DNA of 49,803 nt from Mariprofundaceae bacterium (GTDB lineage: Bacteria; Pseudomonadota; Zetaproteobacteria; Mariprofundales; Mariprofundaceae): assembly GCA_030950925.1 (NCBI GenBank), contig JAUZQO010000031.1, forward strand, positions 1-49,803. The letters run 5' to 3'. Under the pieces are notes generated by a model, which saw nothing but the letters and a program-made list of their open reading frames with translations, had not been told where the DNA came from and did not search any database. Both the position numbers and the translations under genes were made by a program. The first letter of the stretch is position 1, and the number at the start of each line of letters is the position of its first letter. Shown one piece after another: positions 2,540 to 37,978 of this stretch.

Positions 2540-3591
2540 TGAAATTTGATGAAAGACAACAAGATGTAACTTTTCCACTGTTGGGGATGATGCCTGTTGC
2601 TGTGGTTTTATTGGATAAAGCAGGGCATATCACGCATGCCAATGAGTTAGCACAAAGTTATCTAGGCACATCCTTGCGGCGTTTATCGGGCGTTCATTTA
2701 TCACGCTTTATGCAGCCTTCTTCCGAAGTTAAAGCGATGTTATCACGCGCATTGTTGGGTGAGACGGTGGCGGATGATGGGTTTTGTGGTCGTGATAACC
2801 ATATGCCGTATTCCTTACACTTTTCATGTCGGCAAGATGAAGAAGGGGTGGTCATTGCGCTGCTACCTGAAGCCAACCGTTCGGAAGTTGAAGAACATGC
2901 CCATCGCCATGAAATGGCAGAGGCTGTGGCGCGTATTGCTTTGGAAATGGCGCATGAAGTGAAAAATCCTTTGGCATCCTTGCGGGGGGCTGCGCAATTA
3001 TTGCATGAACAAAGTGTGGGAGATGCGAAGGAAATTAGTCAGCATATTATGGATGAAGTGGATCGTATTCGTCAGCGTATTGATCTTTTTTTACAAGTGG
3101 GTCCGCATGCCAATATTGCTAAATCAGCGGTCAATATTCATGCGCTGATTGACGATGTATGTATGAATGTGGAAGGGGTGCGAGTACAACGTGTCTTTGA
3201 CCCCAGTTTACCTGATATTTTATTGCATGAACAACGTTTTCGCCAAGCCATTGAAAACTTATGGCAAAATGCACTGGAAGCAGGGGCAGATCGGATTGTT
3301 TGGGAAACCCGTGTTGCGCCGATGGTGGCATTGCGAGGGCATCAAGGCATGGTGTTGGAGTTGTGTATTCGCAGTAATGGCAAAGCCATTCCTGAACACT
3401 TAAAACATCGTTTATTTGAACCTTATGTGTCAGGTAAAGCGCGTGGAAGTGGTTTGGGCTTGGCGATTGTTCAGCGTGTCATGCAAGAACATGGGGGGCG
3501 TGTGAGTGTGAAATATCGCAGGTATGACACATGTTTCATCATGCATTTACCTATTACTAAAGCCAATCAGGATCATGTATGCACGCATTGA
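2539..3591 (+). CDS. ntrB: Nitrogen-regulation sensor histidine kinase NtrB
   Basis: This 350-residue cytosolic kinase would phosphorylate NtrC in response to PII signalling. A PAS domain lies at about 15-110. The H-box MAHEVKNPL contains the phospho-acceptor H139, the N-box ENLWQNALEA (239-248) is intact, and the G2 box GSGLGLA is at 303-309. The G1 box is abnormal: the usual D-x-G-x-G reads S279-N-G-K-A283, so the Asp that contacts adenine is missing. No membrane segments are visible. The ATG shares bases with the dusB stop, and the 3' end overlaps ntrC by 13 bp, implying coupled translation. Gene order with dusB and ntrC supports NtrB rather than another sensor. Confidence 0.9.
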   Translation: MKFDERQQDVTFPLLGMMPVAVVLLDKAGHITHANELAQSYLGTSLRRLSGVHLSRFMQPSSEVKAMLSRALLGETVADDGFCGRDNHMPYSLHFSCRQDEEGVVIALLPEANRSEVEEHAHRHEMAEAVARIALEMAHEVKNPLASLRGAAQLLHEQSVGDAKEISQHIMDEVDRIRQRIDLFLQVGPHANIAKSAVNIHALIDDVCMNVEGVRVQRVFDPSLPDILLHEQRFRQAIENLWQNALEAGADRIVWETRVAPMVALRGHQGMVLELCIRSNGKAIPEHLKHRLFEPYVSGKARGSGLGLAIVQRVMQEHGGRVSVKYRRYDTCFIMHLPITKANQDHVCTH

Positions 3592-5009
3592 TTGTTGATG
3601 ATGATGCGGGTATTCGTTGGATTTTGTCGCGTGTCTTAAAAGAAGAAGGCTTTGATGTGCTTGAGGCTGAAAATTTAGCTGATGCAAAAGCCTTGCAATC
3701 TCAAACCATAGATTTGGTCTTTTTGGATGTTTTTTTGCCCGATGGCAATGGTATGCAAGCCTTATCTTCGGGCATGTTTACAGCACCTGTGATTATGTTG
3801 ACGGCTGAAACAACCTTTGGACATGCAGCCGAGGCATACCGAGAAGGGGCGATGGAATATCTCCCGAAACCTTTTGATTTGGATGAAGTCCGAAGCTTGG
3901 CGCAACGTGTGTTGGGCAGTGCTAAAAAGCCTAAAAAACAAGCGAAAAGTGCAAAAAAAAAACAGACTGCGGAAAAAGAAAAAAAGAGCATGATTATTGG
4001 GCGAAGCCCTGCCATGCAAGTGTTGTTTCGGACGTTGGGACGGGTTGCACCGTCAGATTTAACCGTATTGATTACAGGCGAATCGGGAACAGGCAAAGAG
4101 CTGGTCGCACACGAGTTACATCGTTTAAGTCATCGTAAGGATCAGTCGTTTATCGCCATCAATACTGCCGCGATTCCTGCGGAGCTACTGGAATCGGAAT
4201 TGTTTGGGCATGAAAAAGGAGCGTTTACAGGCGCGGATAAACATCGTACAGGACGCTTTGAAGATGCCGATGGTGGCACACTTTTTTTGGATGAAATTGG
4301 TGATATGCCCATGGTGTTGCAATCGAAAATGTTGCGTGTGTTGGAAATGGGCATGGTGCAACGCATTGGTGGCAATGAAGAAAAGAAGGTCAATGTGCGT
4401 TTATTGGCCGCCACACATCAAAATTTACAACAAAAAATTCGTGACGGACAATTTCGTGAAGATTTATATTACCGTTTAAATGTGATTCCTGTACATATTC
4501 CACCCTTGCGTGAGCGGCGGGATGATATTCCTGAATTGGCAGCAACCTTATTGCAACAAGCCTCCGATGAATTATCCATGACAGCACCGATTTTATTGGA
4601 TCATTCCATTGATTTGCTCAAACGCCATGATTGGTATGGCAATGTCCGCGAATTAAAAAATGTGATGCGGCGTTTGGCAGTGTTAACCCCTGGTGCAAGC
4701 ATTACAGTATCGGATGTGGCATTGGCATTGGGTCATGATGGTGGGCAACAAGCCTTGGGTGGCTTGGAATCTTTGGATGAGGCCGTGACCCGCTGTTTAC
4801 GTGCTTATATGGATAAACTGGGCTATGCCGAGGCAACAGGTTTGCACCATCACCTTTTGTCGATGGTTGAACCTGCCTTGTTAAATTTGGTGCTTGAAAA
4901 ATGTCGCGGAAATCAGTTGAAGGCAGCTGATATGTTGGGATTGAATCGCAATACCGTGCGTAAATTAATTCGCCAATATGAGATTGATCCAAGCGTCTTT
5001 AAGGAGTGA
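3579..5009 (+). CDS. ntrC: Sigma-54-dependent nitrogen response regulator NtrC
   Basis: This 476-residue activator opens sigma-54 promoters after phosphorylation by NtrB. The receiver domain has D10-type acidic residues and phospho-acceptor D50 (FLDVFLPDG). A very Lys-rich linker (about 115-137) follows. The AAA+ domain carries Walker A GESGTGKE (167-174), the sigma-54 contact loop GAFTGA (214-219) and Walker B GGTLFLDE (232-239). The C-terminus has a Fis-type helix-turn-helix ([16 protein letters not shown]). Its start lies inside the 3' end of ntrB. Its last 11 bp overlap the 3' end of the convergent rnhA gene. Confidence 0.95.
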
Positions 5010-5442
5010 CTTTGGGAATCCCTTGGCGTGCGAGTTCATCGGCTTTTTCATTGCCTTCATTGCCTGCATGACCTTTCACCCATTGCCAATCGACTGTATG
5101 AATATGATTCAAGGCATCCAATGTTTCCCATAAATCTTGGCTAACGACAGGCTTTTTGGCGGCATTTTTCCAGCCTCGCTTTTTCCAGCCTGAAATCCAC
5201 TCGGTGATGCCTTGAATCACATATTTGGAATCTGAATAAATGGTGATGTGTGATGGTTTTTTGAGTGCTTTCAGTGCTTCAATGGCAGCGCGCAACTCCA
5301 TGCGTTGGTTGGTGGTGTGTTTTTCACCACCGCACAGTTCTTTTTCATGTTCGCCATAGCGCAACCATACACCCCAGCCGCCAGGACCTGGGTTGCCAGA
5401 GCAAGCGCCATCGGTATAAGCAATGAGCTTGGGTGTATCCAT
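4999..5442 (-). CDS. rnhA: Ribonuclease HI
   Basis: This 147-residue enzyme degrades the RNA strand of RNA-DNA hybrids, removing primers and R-loops. The four catalytic acids are in standard context: D11 ([15 protein letters not shown]), E49 (NQRMELRAA), D71 (YSDSKYV) and D135 (EKADELA), with H125 in the flexible catalytic loop ([10 protein letters not shown]). Length matches typical bacterial RNase HI. The ATG overlaps the ubiB stop by one base (TAATG on the minus strand), so it is the last gene of the ubiE-ubiJ-ubiB-rnhA unit. Its final codons overlap the end of ntrC. Confidence 0.96.
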
Positions 5443-7046
5443 TAGGATTTGCGTTGAAAAATCATAATGATGCCGAAAATTAACAAGCTGCTACCTAAAA
5501 TAAGATGCCAATGGGGAATATGTAAGGTTTGTCCCAGTAGCATGGCAATACCGACAGCACTTAACAGTCCACCCATCAATAAGGGAAGAATAGAGGGCTT
5601 GGGCGGCTCCATCAATTTACTTTGTATGACGTGTTCAATCATGGTGTCCATGCGGGTGGGCAGTGTCATCCAGTCATGAAGTTGTGTTTTTAAATCTTCT
5701 GCGACATGTTCGATTTTGGCTTTGGGACCGAGATGTTTCATCATCCACGTGCTGACAAGGGGCTTGGCAAGCTCCCAAATATTTACATCATCGGCCAGCT
5801 CTCTGGCAACACCTTCAATCACCACCATGGTTTTTTGTAACAAGAGTAGTTCTGGTTGGGTTTCCATTTGAAATCGTTCGGTGACAGCAAACATGCAAAG
5901 TAATAATTCAGCAATGGAGATGTCAGCCAGCGGTCGGTTGAAAATAGGTACCGCAACTTCACGTAAAGCATCTTCAAAAGCAGAAATATTGGTGTCACGC
6001 GGTACATAACCTGCCTCAACATGAACAATGGCAGCTTGATGGTAATCAGCGCGTAAAAATGCCAGCAACATATCCGCAAGATAGCGGCGGGGTCGCAAAT
6101 CCAAGCGTCCAACAATGCCGAAATCAAGCAATACAATATCACCATTTTGAGCCACAAAAATATTGCCAGGGTGCATGTCAGCATGAAAATAACCATCCAC
6201 AAACACCATGTGAAAAAATAATGTGGTGGCACGTTCGCAGATTTTAAGGGGGTCAAGACCTGCTGCTATAATAGAGGCACGTTCATCAATAGGAAAACCC
6301 ATGATGCGTTCAGTGGTAAGGACTTCCACATGGGTGTAATCCCAAATAACATGGGGGACACGCACACCATCCAAGGCTTTGAAATTTTCTTCAAAACGAC
6401 TGGCGTGAGCGGCTTCAGCGCGTAGGTTTAACTCCCCGCGAATACTTGTGGTAAATTCTTCAACGACACACTTGGCTTTGAGGCGTTGATATTCAGGGAA
6501 ATAACGTTCAAACATCGTCGCAAGCAAACGAAGAATGGCTAAATCCGCTTCAATCGTTTTATGAATATGAGGACGACGAACTTTGACGGCGACTTGTTGT
6601 CCATCAGGCAGAATCGCAAAGTGAACTTGGGCAATCGAGGCGGCCGCAATCGGGATTTCATCAAAAGATTGATAAAGCCCACCGTCACCTGTTAAAGGCT
6701 TTTTGAAGGTGCGCTCAATGACGCTTTGGACATGTTCAAAAGGAGCTGGCGGCACATGATCTTGCAGTTTTTTTAATTCCAGTGCGACTTCGAGCGGTAA
6801 TAAGTCCACGCGTGTTGAAAGCATTTGACCAAACTTGATAAAGGTTGGCCCAAGTTTTTCAAGGGCTTCACGAATTTGACCGCCCAAATCATGCGGTAGG
6901 GTGTCATCACGAAAGAGCTGAATCAACCAAGCATAAGGGCGAAGCAAACGCATCCGCATGGCAAGGGCAGCCATGCCGTGTGAGGTTAAAATGTAGCCAA
7001 TGCGTAAAAGTCGAAGGTTGCGTCGAATATTGCCAGATAATTTCAT
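5442..7046 (-). CDS. ubiB: Ubiquinone biosynthesis atypical kinase/ATPase UbiB
   Basis: This ABC1/ADCK-family protein supports coenzyme Q assembly, probably by ATP-driven extraction or presentation of prenylated intermediates. The 534-residue sequence shows the family-defining KFGQ motif (71-74), an Ala-rich nucleotide loop AAAS (134-137) replacing the Gly-rich loop of ordinary kinases, and Lys155 (VAVKV). It also has the catalytic HADMHPGN segment (D290, N295) and DFG (308-310). Two hydrophobic segments at about 487-530 anchor the C-terminus in the inner membrane, as in other UbiB proteins. The start overlaps the end of ubiJ by 4 bp. Confidence 0.96.
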
Positions 7047-22138: not shown

Positions 22139-23032
22139 ATGATGCTTACAGGGAAAACAAAGGTTTATGGTATCATCGGTCACCCTGTGACGCATTCATT
22201 GTCACCTGTTTTTCAAGGGTATTTTGCCGAACAATGTATGGTTGATGTGATATATGCTCCTTTTCCTGTTTGCCCTGAAAATTTTTCATCCGCACTGGCG
22301 GGCCTAAGCTATGCATCGGTGCAGGGTTTGAATATTACCGTACCCTTTAAAGAGACGGTGCTTCCTTACGTTTGTATGGATGATGATGTGCGTTGTATCG
22401 GTGCAGCCAATACTTTGAAGAACATCGATGGGCAGTGGTGTGCCTATAATACGGATTGGCAGGGTGTGCGTGAGGTTATGTTGGGAACAGGTTTAGCCTT
22501 GCAAGGCGGGCAGATGTTGATGTTTGGTGCTGGCGGAACAGCACGTGCAGTATTGCATGCAGCGGCAGTTCTGGGTTTTGCACGTGTTTTAATTTGTAAC
22601 CGCTCCAATGATCGTTGTGATAGTTTATGTCAACATGCTATGCGGCAGTACCCACAGATGGTATGTGAACCTGTGGTATGGGAGCAAAGTGCAGTGGATC
22701 AGGCGAGTGTAGGTTCGAGCTTGATAATGAATACCACAAGCATTGGTTTATCACCCGATCAAACATTCCCTTTTCAATTGTCGGGCGAAGGCTGGGCTAT
22801 GGATGCCGTGTATCGACCTGATGGCGAAACGGCATTTGTATTGGTAGCACGGCAGGGGGGGCGTTTGGTGGTGGATGGCTTGCCTATGTTGCTGGCTCAA
22901 GGCATGAAAGCTTTTGAAATATGGCATCCTGAACAAAGATTGGACATCTTAGATGTACTACATTGGATGGTGAAAAAGTTAAATCGAGCACCATTAAGCT
23001 TGCCTACTTGGGAGAATACCGATGAAACGTAG
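22139..23032 (+). CDS. aroE: Shikimate dehydrogenase (NADP+)
   Basis: AroE reduces 3-dehydroshikimate in aromatic amino acid synthesis. The 297-residue protein has the substrate-binding GHPVTHSLSP, NITVPFKE with the catalytic Lys, and NTDWQGV with the catalytic Asp. It also has a Rossmann loop FGAGGTARAVLHA and a C-terminal GLPMLLAQG. It starts 1 bp after the glmS stop at the first of two consecutive ATG codons, and its 3' end overlaps pilB by 11 bp. Confidence 0.96.
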   Translation: MMLTGKTKVYGIIGHPVTHSLSPVFQGYFAEQCMVDVIYAPFPVCPENFSSALAGLSYASVQGLNITVPFKETVLPYVCMDDDVRCIGAANTLKNIDGQWCAYNTDWQGVREVMLGTGLALQGGQMLMFGAGGTARAVLHAAAVLGFARVLICNRSNDRCDSLCQHAMRQYPQMVCEPVVWEQSAVDQASVGSSLIMNTTSIGLSPDQTFPFQLSGEGWAMDAVYRPDGETAFVLVARQGGRLVVDGLPMLLAQGMKAFEIWHPEQRLDILDVLHWMVKKLNRAPLSLPTWENTDET

Positions 23033-24734
23033 TCGCTTGGGTGATATTTTGTTGCGAAAGAAAGCTATTACTGAAGAGCAATTGCATACTGTGATGCGTG
23101 AAATGAAGATGAATGGCGTGAGCTTGATCTCAGAGTTGGTGAAGCAAGATATATTCAGTGAACTTCAACTGACGCAATTTATTGGCAAAAGCTTTGGTAG
23201 ACCCGTGATTGACCTGAGTAAAGTGGATGTGAGTAAAAACATCAAACAAGCGAATGTGTCCAGTATATCCGTTGACATGATGCAGGAAAAAAAAGCGATA
23301 CCCATTGGTCGTAAGGGTAATACGATTACATTGGCAGTGGCAGACCCTTATGATATTGATGGCTTGGATGCCATGGCATTTATGAGTGGCGCACAAATTG
23401 ATGTTGTGATCGTTCCTGAATCTGAATTGTTAGCAAAGCTGGATGAGTTGGGTGGTGCAGGGCAACAGATTGAAGATGTGATGAGTGCCATTGGTGCAGA
23501 TGAGATTGAAGTTGTTGAGACAGAAGAAACCAATATGGACGGTACTTCTTTGACGGCTGCGACAGAAGAAGCACCCGTCGTGAAGTTGGTCAATTTAATT
23601 TTCTTGGATGCGGTGAAGCGAGGTGCTTCCGATATTCATATTGAACCTTATGAAAAAACATTGCGTGTGCGATACCGTGTGGATGGCGTGTTACAAGAAA
23701 TGATGCGGCCACCGATGAAAATGCGTGATGCGATGGTGTCTCGCATTAAGATTCAAGCGAGGCTGAATATTGCTGAGCGGCGTGTCCCTCAAGATGGGCG
23801 TATTAAATTGCGCTTATCCAAAGCCAAAAGTGTTGATTTTCGTGTGTCAATTTTGCCGACGTTGTTTGGTGAAAAAGTGGTGATGCGCCTTTTGGATCAA
23901 TCCAGTTTGCAGTTGGATATGACGAAGTTGGGCTATGAAGCTGAAGATTTGAAGAACTTTCAACACCATATCCATCAACCGTATGGCATGGTCTTGGTGA
24001 CAGGACCAACGGGCTCGGGGAAAACAGTCAGCTTGTATTCAGCGGTGGCGGAACTCAATCAGCCAAGTGTAAATATTTGTACCGCAGAAGATCCCGTGGA
24101 GTTTAACTTTATGGGTATCAATCAAGTCAATGTGAACCCTGCGGTTGGTATGGACTTTCCTGCCGCATTGAAATCCTTTTTGCGTCAAGATCCCGATATT
24201 ATTCTAATTGGTGAAATTCGTGATTATGATACCGCTGCCATTGGTATTAAAGCTGCTCTGACAGGACACTTGGTGTTGGCAACTTTGCATACCAATGATG
24301 CACCTTCAACGATGACACGTATGATTAATATGGGTATCGAGTCTTTTCTTGTGGGTTCGGCGGTCAATTTGGTGACGGCACAGCGTTTGGGACGACGAAC
24401 ATGCAAAGAGTGTTCGGCTCCGATTGATATACCCAAGCAAGCCTTGTTGGATGCTGGTTTTCCAGAGGCTGATGTCGGCACATTTCAACCGATGCAAGGT
24501 AAAGGTTGTAAAGTTTGTAATGGCACGGGTTATAAAGGGCGTGTGGGTATTTATCAGGTGATGCCTGTGAGTGATGAAATTCGAGATGCTGTGTATGCAG
24601 GTAAAAACTCGGATGAACTCAATGATATTGCTGTATCCCAAGGTGTGAAAACATTGCGAATGTCAGCTTTAAATAAGGTGAAAGAAGGGGCGGTCTCTTT
24701 GGAAGAATGTTTGCGTGTAACGGTGGGTGACTGA
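23022..24734 (+). CDS. pilB: Type IV pilus extension ATPase PilB
   Basis: PilB is the cytoplasmic hexameric motor that drives pilus polymerisation. The 570-residue protein has two N-terminal MshEN-like half-motifs whose LG/LI positions are 29 residues apart (L6 and L35), then the GSPII_E domain. The ATPase core has Walker A GPTGSGKT (328-335), an Asp box, Walker B ILIGEIRD and the His box (TGHLVLATLHTNDA). A tetracysteine zinc site follows (CKECSAP, CKVCNGTG). It overlaps aroE and is followed by pilC with a 1-bp overlap. Confidence 0.96.
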   Translation: MKRSRLGDILLRKKAITEEQLHTVMREMKMNGVSLISELVKQDIFSELQLTQFIGKSFGRPVIDLSKVDVSKNIKQANVSSISVDMMQEKKAIPIGRKGNTITLAVADPYDIDGLDAMAFMSGAQIDVVIVPESELLAKLDELGGAGQQIEDVMSAIGADEIEVVETEETNMDGTSLTAATEEAPVVKLVNLIFLDAVKRGASDIHIEPYEKTLRVRYRVDGVLQEMMRPPMKMRDAMVSRIKIQARLNIAERRVPQDGRIKLRLSKAKSVDFRVSILPTLFGEKVVMRLLDQSSLQLDMTKLGYEAEDLKNFQHHIHQPYGMVLVTGPTGSGKTVSLYSAVAELNQPSVNICTAEDPVEFNFMGINQVNVNPAVGMDFPAALKSFLRQDPDIILIGEIRDYDTAAIGIKAALTGHLVLATLHTNDAPSTMTRMINMGIESFLVGSAVNLVTAQRLGRRTCKECSAPIDIPKQALLDAGFPEADVGTFQPMQGKGCKVCNGTGYKGRVGIYQVMPVSDEIRDAVYAGKNSDELNDIAVSQGVKTLRMSALNKVKEGAVSLEECLRVTVGD

Positions 24735-35551: not shown

Positions 35552-37978
35552 ATGAAAAAAATTGCCTCTTCTCCCCGTCAAGCATCATCCCAAACAGTTA
35601 GTATCAATTTACTCTCAGGTGAGACGCTTGACGGTTATTTACGGGGCTTCTCATCGGCGATGCATGAATTGCATTTTTTTCGAACGGGTGCAGATGGTCA
35701 GGTGATTGAGCAATGGTTGGCAGCCAAAGATATTGTCTATATTGGTCAGCATCATAACGAGCAAAGCAATGACTTACCAACGTACCAAGAACAAAAATTA
35801 GAAGAACTTAAAATCACCACTATTCATTCGGAAACATTCCATGTACAGGCATACCCAGCATTGCCCCATGCGCCAGGTTTTTTCGCTATTAGCAACAATA
35901 AGTTTACGCCCTATCGACGTATTTTCTTTTATCGACGGGGTATTCATTTTGAAGAACAGCCTGAGAAGTTGGGTGATTTGTTAATCAGTGAGAATTTAGC
36001 ATCACCACAAGAAATTCAGCATGCACTTGATTTACAAAAAAAAGAAACGCCACCTTTGGGTGTGGTGTTAAAAGAGCAGGGGAAAATCACGGTTAAAGAT
36101 ATCAAGCATGCTTTGGATGTTCAGCGACATAAGGACATCAAGCTTGGTGATATTTTGATGGAAAGAAAGCAGGTAACCCAAATGCAAATTAAAGCGGGTC
36201 TGAAAGAACAGATTCGCTCGAAGAAAGCACTGGGTACTATTTTTGTCGAGACAGGTGTGATTACTTCCAAAGATTTGTTGTCGGCACTGCACTTTCAAAA
36301 GCACCAAAAATTGAGGCTGGGTGAAATTTTAGTCGAAGCCAAGCTGATTACAGATCTGGATCTGGATCTGGCATTGGCAGAGCAAAAGGTTCGCGGTTTA
36401 CGTTTGGGTGAGATTTTATTGAGCACTGAGGTGATCACAGAGGATCAACTGTTGTATGTTTTGGCGAAGAAGTTTCATTTGCCTGCGGTGGATTTGGATA
36501 CCTATAGTATCAATGAAATGGCTGAAAGTGAAGTGACACGTAGTGTTATTGAAAAATACCAAGTGTTACCCATTGATTCGGATCAACACACCTTAACCAT
36601 TGCTTTGAGTGATCCTTTGGGCTTAGAAGCTTATGATCAAATTGCTTTTGCCACAGGAAAAAAAATCCATGAAGTTATGGTCAAAGGTTCGCAATTGAAG
36701 GCGCGAATTGAGCATTATGTGGAAGAAGAAGAATACAGTGATGAGTTGTCGTGTGAATTCTTGCATCAAGATGGAGATATGGGTGATGAGGAGTACAGTG
36801 AGTTAGAAATTACTGAGTCGACACAAGATGCCCCGATTGTTCGTTTGGTGAACCGTATTATCAGCAATGGCTTGAAAAAAGAAGCTTCGGATATTCATAT
36901 TTTACCACAGAGCAATAGAATTATTCTGGCATATCGGCTAAATGGACAATTGATTTCTGAAAGTGCCTTGGATAAGAGTTTGCATGCGAAAATTTCGGCG
37001 CGTATTAAAATCCTAAGCGGGATGAATATTGCAGAACGGCGTATGCCGCAGGATGGGCGTATGATTTTACGGGATGGTAAACGGAAGTATGAATTTCGTG
37101 TGTCCTGCATTCCCAATGCTTATGGTGAATCCTTGGTGTTGCGTGTATTGAACAAAGATATGGCTGTGGATTTGGATATGCTGGGGCTGCGTGATGAGGA
37201 TATTCAACATTTATCAGACATGGCACACAAACCTTATGGACTTATTCTTGTTACAGGTCCGACGGGTTCGGGTAAATCTACGACCTTGTTTGCAGTTTTG
37301 AAATCTTTATCAGATATGCCTGTGCATATTTTAACGATTGAAGATCCAGTGGAATCGGAAATCAAAGATGCCAACCAAATTCAGGTGAACAACCAAATTG
37401 GTCTGACCTTTGCACGTGTATTGCGAAATGTACTTCGTCACGATCCTGATGTGATTATGATTGGTGAGATGCGTGATGAAGAAACTGCATCCATTGGGAT
37501 TGAAGCGGCTTTGACGGGGCATCTGATGCTTTCAACACTACATACCAATTCAGCGGTTGATACAATTATTCGATTGAATGATTTAAATATTCCCAACTAC
37601 TTGATTGCACCCTCCTTGTTGGGTGTGATGAGCCAGACCTTATTGAAAAAGCTGTGTGTAGAATGTCGCCAAGCTGTGGCTGCGAATGATGTGGCCTTTG
37701 CCAGGGTGAAAAGCTTTGGATTTGGTGAAGCCGAGCAACTTTATGAAGCAGTGGGTTGCTCTGAATGCCATGAAACGGGTTATTCAGGACGTGTGATGGC
37801 GTATGAATTTTTGGTGGTGAATGAAGTGGTGCGTCAGGCGATTCATGATGGTGTGACAGGGCAAGCGTTACAGCGCATTGCGGTGGAATCAGGCATGGAA
37901 CCCAAAGCCAAAGTTGCCTTTCAATTGGCGGTGGATGGTGTGATTGATTACAAGGACTTTATTTATTCGGCAATGTAA
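35552..37978 (+). CDS. Orphan GspE/PilB-family ATPase with six MshEN-like repeats
   Basis: The 808-residue protein has a beta-rich N-terminal domain (about 14-130) opening with INLLSGETLDGYLRGF, which I do not recognise firmly. Six tandem repeats follow with LG at 140, 169, 198, 227, 256 and 285, an exact 29-residue period (for example KLGDLLISENLASPQEI, RLGEILVEAKLITDLDL). A GSPII_E domain and ATPase core come next: Walker A GPTGSGKST (569-577), IEDPVE, Walker B IMIGEMRD, HLMLSTLHTNSA, and a tetracysteine (C702, C705, C736, C739). MshEN domains bind c-di-GMP through paired 24-residue motifs with a 5-residue spacer. No pilus or secretion genes flank it. No clear Shine-Dalgarno precedes the ATG. 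Confidence 0.88.
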   Translation: MKKIASSPRQASSQTVSINLLSGETLDGYLRGFSSAMHELHFFRTGADGQVIEQWLAAKDIVYIGQHHNEQSNDLPTYQEQKLEELKITTIHSETFHVQAYPALPHAPGFFAISNNKFTPYRRIFFYRRGIHFEEQPEKLGDLLISENLASPQEIQHALDLQKKETPPLGVVLKEQGKITVKDIKHALDVQRHKDIKLGDILMERKQVTQMQIKAGLKEQIRSKKALGTIFVETGVITSKDLLSALHFQKHQKLRLGEILVEAKLITDLDLDLALAEQKVRGLRLGEILLSTEVITEDQLLYVLAKKFHLPAVDLDTYSINEMAESEVTRSVIEKYQVLPIDSDQHTLTIALSDPLGLEAYDQIAFATGKKIHEVMVKGSQLKARIEHYVEEEEYSDELSCEFLHQDGDMGDEEYSELEITESTQDAPIVRLVNRIISNGLKKEASDIHILPQSNRIILAYRLNGQLISESALDKSLHAKISARIKILSGMNIAERRMPQDGRMILRDGKRKYEFRVSCIPNAYGESLVLRVLNKDMAVDLDMLGLRDEDIQHLSDMAHKPYGLILVTGPTGSGKSTTLFAVLKSLSDMPVHILTIEDPVESEIKDANQIQVNNQIGLTFARVLRNVLRHDPDVIMIGEMRDEETASIGIEAALTGHLMLSTLHTNSAVDTIIRLNDLNIPNYLIAPSLLGVMSQTLLKKLCVECRQAVAANDVAFARVKSFGFGEAEQLYEAVGCSECHETGYSGRVMAYEFLVVNEVVRQAIHDGVTGQALQRIAVESGMEPKAKVAFQLAVDGVIDYKDFIYSAM

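Follow-up and report, generated by a model that had tools for sequence, protein, structure and literature searches.

MshE of Vibrio cholerae (PMC5013675; PDB 5htl) binds one c-di-GMP with two motifs of 24 residues joined by a linker of five residues, and this MshEN_N part of the protein forms a four-helix bundle. The contacts to c-di-GMP are made by the motif positions 1 (Arg stacking), 2, 17 and 21 (a Leu cluster), the backbone of positions 3-4 and Gln 24 (PMC5013675). Through MshE, c-di-GMP promotes pilus extension (PMC7096442). Three consecutive GSPII domains before one motor have been reported only in Deinococcus-Thermus (PMC11731258). In PilF of Thermus thermophilus these MshEN-type sensors carry several motifs, up to seven, and precede one PilB-type motor (PMC11731258, PMC12002112). 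Each is a complete GSPII domain with its own C-terminal subdomain, and the three occupy ~480 residues. GSPII-C has a proline at position 1 of motif II, yet it binds c-di-GMP at ~0.3-0.5 uM (PMC11731258), whereas GSPII-A is similar in sequence and has a near-consensus motif I, yet lacks binding (PMC12002112). ITC on PilF argues against extensive cooperativity (PMC11731258). In Acinetobacter, both TfpB and PilB serve the pili (PMC8213720). What multiple PilB homologues do and how MshEN domains gate pilus motors are questions that the field has yet to answer (PMC11656802).

The window, a stretch of 49,803 nucleotides from a Mariprofundaceae bacterium, encodes besides a canonical PilB an orphan assembly ATPase, here named X, with the following features:

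23022..24734, + strand: canonical PilB of the pilBC-pilSR-pilD cluster, MshEN motifs degenerate
35552..37978, + strand: gene X, orphan PilB/GspE-type assembly ATPase, 808 aa
35591..35956, + strand: N-terminal beta domain of X, residues 14-135, ten predicted strands, probably DUF6982/Sm-like (AF2 pLDDT mostly 80-95; homologue domain matches; alignment)
35963..36049, + strand: MshEN unit 1, residues 138-166, motif I of dyad 1
36050..36136, + strand: MshEN unit 2, residues 167-195, motif II of dyad 1, PLG type
36137..36223, + strand: MshEN unit 3, residues 196-224, motif I of dyad 2
36224..36310, + strand: MshEN unit 4, residues 225-253, motif II of dyad 2
36311..36397, + strand: MshEN unit 5, residues 254-282, motif I of dyad 3, canonical RLG...Q
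36398..36484, + strand: MshEN unit 6, residues 283-311, motif II of dyad 3, final Gln replaced by Lys throughout the clade
36473..36730, + strand: MshEN_C subdomain, residues 308-393, the sole one in X (Pfam MshEN match)
36818..37903, + strand: T2SSE motor domain, residues 423-784 (Pfam T2SSE, E 3e-117)
37256..37282, + strand: Walker A, GPTGSGKST, residues 569-577 (P570-K575 invariant in the alignment)
37655..37768, + strand: tetracysteine C702, C705, C736 and C739, typical of PilB/GspE extension ATPases (invariant columns)

The ATPase motifs named in the initial annotation were confirmed. With the T2SSE domain, and with Walker A, Walker B/His box and tetracysteine all kept as invariant alignment columns, X is a PilB/GspE-type secretion ATPase. 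The best 50 matches of a fold search with the full-length protein all contained a motor; among the matches listed, PilF, PilB and GspE were the nearest structures to the motor of X. The PilB model outscored the GspE model on X, but the 505.3 bits obtained with the canonical PilB model TIGR02538 are below its equivalog cut-off of 675.65, and pilC is located with the other pilB (23-26 kb). Like TfpB of Acinetobacter baylyi, X accompanies PilB as an additional extension motor that is phylogenetically distinct and encoded as an orphan; by score it is not a TfpB (NF053534, 403.7 bits versus an equivalog cut-off of 850), and no multi-dyad array is reported for TfpB in the text consulted (PMC8213720).

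The repeat array occupies residues 138-311 with unit starts at 138, 167, 196, 225, 254 and 283. The six LG pairs at residues 140, 169, 198, 227, 256 and 285 and their exact 29-residue period, the observation that had drawn attention to the gene, were verified and lie far above chance: self-similarity at lag 29 was 1.20 BLOSUM62 units per residue, the maximum of 5000 shuffles was 0.035. A profile built solely from canonical two-motif proteins outside the X family scored units 1-6 with 26, 30, 17, 24, 45 and 29 bits, while the shuffled control had its 99% level at 8 bits and a maximum of 14.5 bits in 2000 shuffles. The profile search suggested by the initial annotation was positive with NF053729 (NCBIfam, MshE-related c-di-GMP motif), which matched X in three stretches with 131.7 bits (E 5.8e-39), but Pfam MshEN covered residues 308-393 alone, mostly the MshEN_C part. 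A chance or low-complexity repeat was ruled out by the shuffle tests and the exact LG period, and an assembly artefact by the conservation of the array in 24 genomes, including single-contig or complete ones. DUF4388, considered as a better family, reached 24.5 bits, under its cut-off.

The MshEN two-motif signature (R/K/L)LGxx(LVI)(LVI)xxG(LVI)(LVI)xxxxLxxxLxxQ with a spacer of ~5 residues is present as six units in three dyads. Units 2 and 4 depart from it with P/A at position 1 and unit 6 with K at position 24; positions 10 and 17 also deviate in some units. Odd units begin with R/K-LG, units 2 and 4 mostly with P/A/S-LG. Unit 1 is closer to unit 3, and unit 2 closer to unit 4, than neighbouring units are to each other, and the self-similarity at lag 58 (1.43 per residue) exceeds that at lag 29, thus the block that was repeated is the dyad of 58 residues, which makes up one binding site. 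The variable linker between units 3 and 4 prompted us to consider the alternative pairing (2,3)(4,5); (1,2)(3,4)(5,6) agrees better with the lag-58 signal and with the comparative spacings (29/28/29, 30/34/30). Judged by sequence, the array is three MshEN_N sub-domains sharing one MshEN_C and not three whole MshEN domains. Of the three stacked MshEN modules originally proposed, the six motifs and three dyads before one motor have therefore stood, but the C-terminal subdomain is a single one. Dyad 3 together with MshEN_C corresponds to the MshEN domain of MshE, which has the same motif and spacer lengths and contact positions but only one dyad and no Lys in place of the final Gln of motif II. 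PilF shares with X the consecutive sensors before one PilB-type motor and, in GSPII-C, a PLG-type second motif; it differs in its three complete domains. X has one Pfam MshEN/MshEN_C match, units contiguous at 29 residues, three dyads head to tail within 174 residues and an added beta N-terminal domain, and it occurs as an orphan paralogue in a genome that also has a PilB. Sensor and motor are each of a known kind; X combines them in a compact form with an amplified sensor, which is conserved in one proteobacterial family.

The nucleotide-contact residues, a point raised in the initial annotation, are retained across the 24 six-unit orthologues in units 1-5. Gly-3 was found in 24 of 24 in all units and Gln-24 in 23-24 of 24 in units 1-5, while position 24 of unit 6 is Lys in all 24; the guanine-stacking sites are filled by Leu, Ile, Val or Met. 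Dyad 3 may bind c-di-GMP only weakly, because unit 6 has Lys for Gln in every member. In the deltaproteobacterial four-unit homologues, Gln 24 of the second unit of the AB dyad is mostly lost, and its retention in the six-unit clade suggests constraint. A proline at motif II position 1 need not prevent binding, since GSPII-C of PilF has it and binds. A first AF2 model had low confidence in units 2 and 4, where its alignment lacked coverage, and units 1-4 were refolded alone. This gave eight helices with a mean pLDDT of 81 and, in answer to the structure prediction called for at the outset, the four-helix MshEN_N fold of PilF GSPII-B and MshE: the model superimposed on c-di-GMP-bound GSPII-B over 57 residues at 1.0-1.4 A with a Foldseek probability of 1.00, the E-values of this short match being weak (best 0.06). 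Each dyad (1+2, 3+4, 5+6) is predicted to form a four-helix bundle with room for a single c-di-GMP, and a hexamer of X could hold up to 18.

Full-length six-unit matches in the X protein family were obtained in 24 of 398 sampled genomes of the phylum, all in the family of the window; its genus contributes 3 and a single sister genus the other 21. In a quick motor tree the six-unit proteins grouped with full support in a single clade, which branches inside a set of four-unit relatives from the same bacterial family; the survey of repeat numbers advised in the initial annotation hence yielded six units in 24 genomes and four in the nearest relatives. The period had been described as free of drift. 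It is exact, at 29 residues throughout the array, in the own genus, but in the sister-genus orthologues (L186-L203, L116-L118) units 3 and 4 are spaced by 30-35 residues, while the other spacings remain 29. Two X-like motors of 859 and 743 aa lie nearly back to back in one genome (G041, L123:1-2577 and 3339-5501). Motors with four motifs occur in Fibrobacter (spacings 29,31,29), Desulfuromonadales (30,34,30) and other Pseudomonadota (29,28,29). Like X they have tandem MshEN_N dyads followed by MshEN_C and motor, and those of the delta group share its beta N-terminal domain; unlike X they possess four units, and most delta-group proteins have no binding Gln in unit two of the AB dyad. One PilB-type motor of 957 aa (L030, G057) has two four-unit arrays, eight motifs in all, with an MshEN_C-like stretch after each. 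Such four-motif motors, found in the present analysis, are not described in the literature consulted on MshEN motors. Six MshEN_N units with gaps of 29,31,29,28,29 also occur in a protein of a related family (L206, G038:C26, ORF from ~793), which was assigned by eye from the sequence as an NfrB-like glycosyltransferase; its array is apparently independent of X and part of a non-motor protein. As far as these sequences indicate, multiplication of MshEN_N dyads is a recurrent theme across motors and NfrB-like glycosyltransferases. In this family nature provides graded doses of c-di-GMP-binding motifs on the same kind of motor: 2, 4, 6 and, in one case, 4+4.

For the N-terminal domain, initially regarded as unrecognised, matches of homologues suggested an assignment. 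Residues 14-135 form ten strands predicted at high confidence (AF2), and the domain is kept in members of the X family and in homologues from Desulfuromonadales, Syntrophaceae and Myxococcales. DUF6982 (Pfam PF22478) matched 5 of 22 homologues (best 5.6e-5), while the window protein itself was unmatched; weak LSM matches were found in 4 of 22 (best 0.056). A PDB sequence search with the profile of the domain returned weak matches to Sm/LSm and designed proteins and nothing else. The domain is probably Sm-like, of the DUF6982 type.

In the window X stands alone between dapD and trmFO, as first described, with no adjoining pilus gene; the pilBC-pilSR-pilD cluster ends ~6 kb upstream. This isolation does not extend to the sister genus: of its 19 genomes in which the upstream side of X is visible, 16 have fimV/hubP (FimV_N 2e-21, FimV_core above cut-off) directly upstream of X, in the same orientation and no more than tens of bases away. 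Downstream of X follow often PAP2, holC and a PilZ-domain gene. In the own genus a fimV linkage of X was not seen; two FimV_N genes are present elsewhere in the genome. The genome encodes four assembly-type motors and three PilT-type motors, but only two T2SSF platforms, PilC and GspF, thus X needs a shared platform. A T2SS-like cluster with secretin, GspE and GspF is located on contig C40. Its secretin (C40/L152) is the single secretin-domain match of the genome despite the PilB/PilC/PilT system; PilQ may lie in an assembly gap. Ten GGDEF matches were found in the genome, therefore the signal c-di-GMP is probably made.

The initial annotation gave the window PilB just one motif pair. One pair is present, and it is degenerate, with Gln replaced by Met in motif I and Gly by Ile and Gln by Ser in motif II. 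Xanthomonas XpsE, which is known not to bind, carries changes of the same type (PMC5013675). Five further PilBs of the family (L024, L026, L029, L032, L033) are similarly decayed, i.e. six out of six PilBs looked at. GspE of the own genome has no recognisable MshEN motif, and motif I of a fourth motor, on contig C15, is without LG. X is therefore the only assembly motor of this genome with intact MshEN motifs.

Repeats, dyad-level duplication, retained contact residues, predicted fold, intact motor motifs and motif loss in the other assembly motors form the computed basis for a functional proposal. We consider it probable, with moderate confidence, that X is a second type IV pilus extension ATPase with three tandem c-di-GMP-binding MshEN_N dyads, gated by c-di-GMP and sharing PilC. 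Binding of c-di-GMP to the array would open or stabilise the N-terminal ring, and the altered ring may permit or promote pilus extension, by analogy to the effect of c-di-GMP on MshE. X would work on the existing PilC platform beside a predicted c-di-GMP-blind PilB, comparable to TfpB and PilB in Acinetobacter, and may read a polar c-di-GMP pool organised by FimV/HubP, as proposed for DgcP and FimV in Pseudomonas (PMC7033161). Against this proposal counts the lengthened 3-4 linker of the sister genus, which falls inside dyad 2 under the favoured register, where a fixed linker is expected. Further points against it are the failure of the similar PilF GSPII-A to bind, the Lys of unit 6, the lack of a pilus gene next to X in the window and of a fimV linkage in the own genus, and the ITC on PilF, in which cooperativity did not show. 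A more far-reaching scenario is tentative: c-di-GMP control may have moved from the decayed PilB to a FimV-linked second motor, whose sensor was expanded to three sites in each subunit, at most 18 in a hexamer, for a graded or ultrasensitive read-out of the polar pool. Cooperativity is not implied, because the PilF data argue against it in extensive form.

The extra dyads could instead be structural or protein-docking bundles without nucleotide binding, like PilF GSPII-A, leaving X at most one live site. The P, A or S at position 1 of units 2 and 4, the deviating positions 10 and 17, the failure of GSPII-A to bind in spite of its near-consensus motif I (PMC12002112) and the loss of Gln-24 from the AB dyad of delta-type and distant family homologues would fit such a role. 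But Gly-3 and Gln-24 of units 1-5 are kept in 23-24 of 24 orthologues, unlike the second AB unit of the delta type, and GSPII-C binds with its proline, so that we judge purely structural dyads unlikely. Still less credit is given to X driving a machine other than the type IV pilus, either as an alternative T2SS motor or in a pseudopilus or DNA-uptake machine. This is suggested by the T2SS-like cluster on C40, by the position of X apart from the pil genes in the window and by the PilB score below the equivalog cut-off (505 versus 676); however, the T2SS already has its own GspE beside its platform, the sister-genus X is linked to fimV, a type IV pilus/polar hub gene, and not to gsp genes, and the PilB model scores X above the GspE model. 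That the array serves as a polar c-di-GMP buffer or sink and not as an allosteric gate appears highly improbable: the many potential sites inferred per hexamer and the FimV linkage in the sister genus would suit a sink, but the array shares its polypeptide with a motor whose catalytic motifs are intact, and no precedent was found. The family combines a PilB predicted to be blind to c-di-GMP with an X predicted to sense it, which makes the role of each site directly testable. Three leads are the most useful: amplification at the level of the dyad, linkage to fimV and an apparent transfer of sensing from PilB to X.

The C15 motor (L153:6641-8839, - strand) is also an orphan assembly motor and combines MshEN, with its degenerate motif, and T2SSE with a C-terminal REC domain. 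It adjoins genes for CheW, MCP, a hybrid CheA and probable CheR/CheB, and from this arrangement it looks like a chemotaxis-controlled pilus motor.
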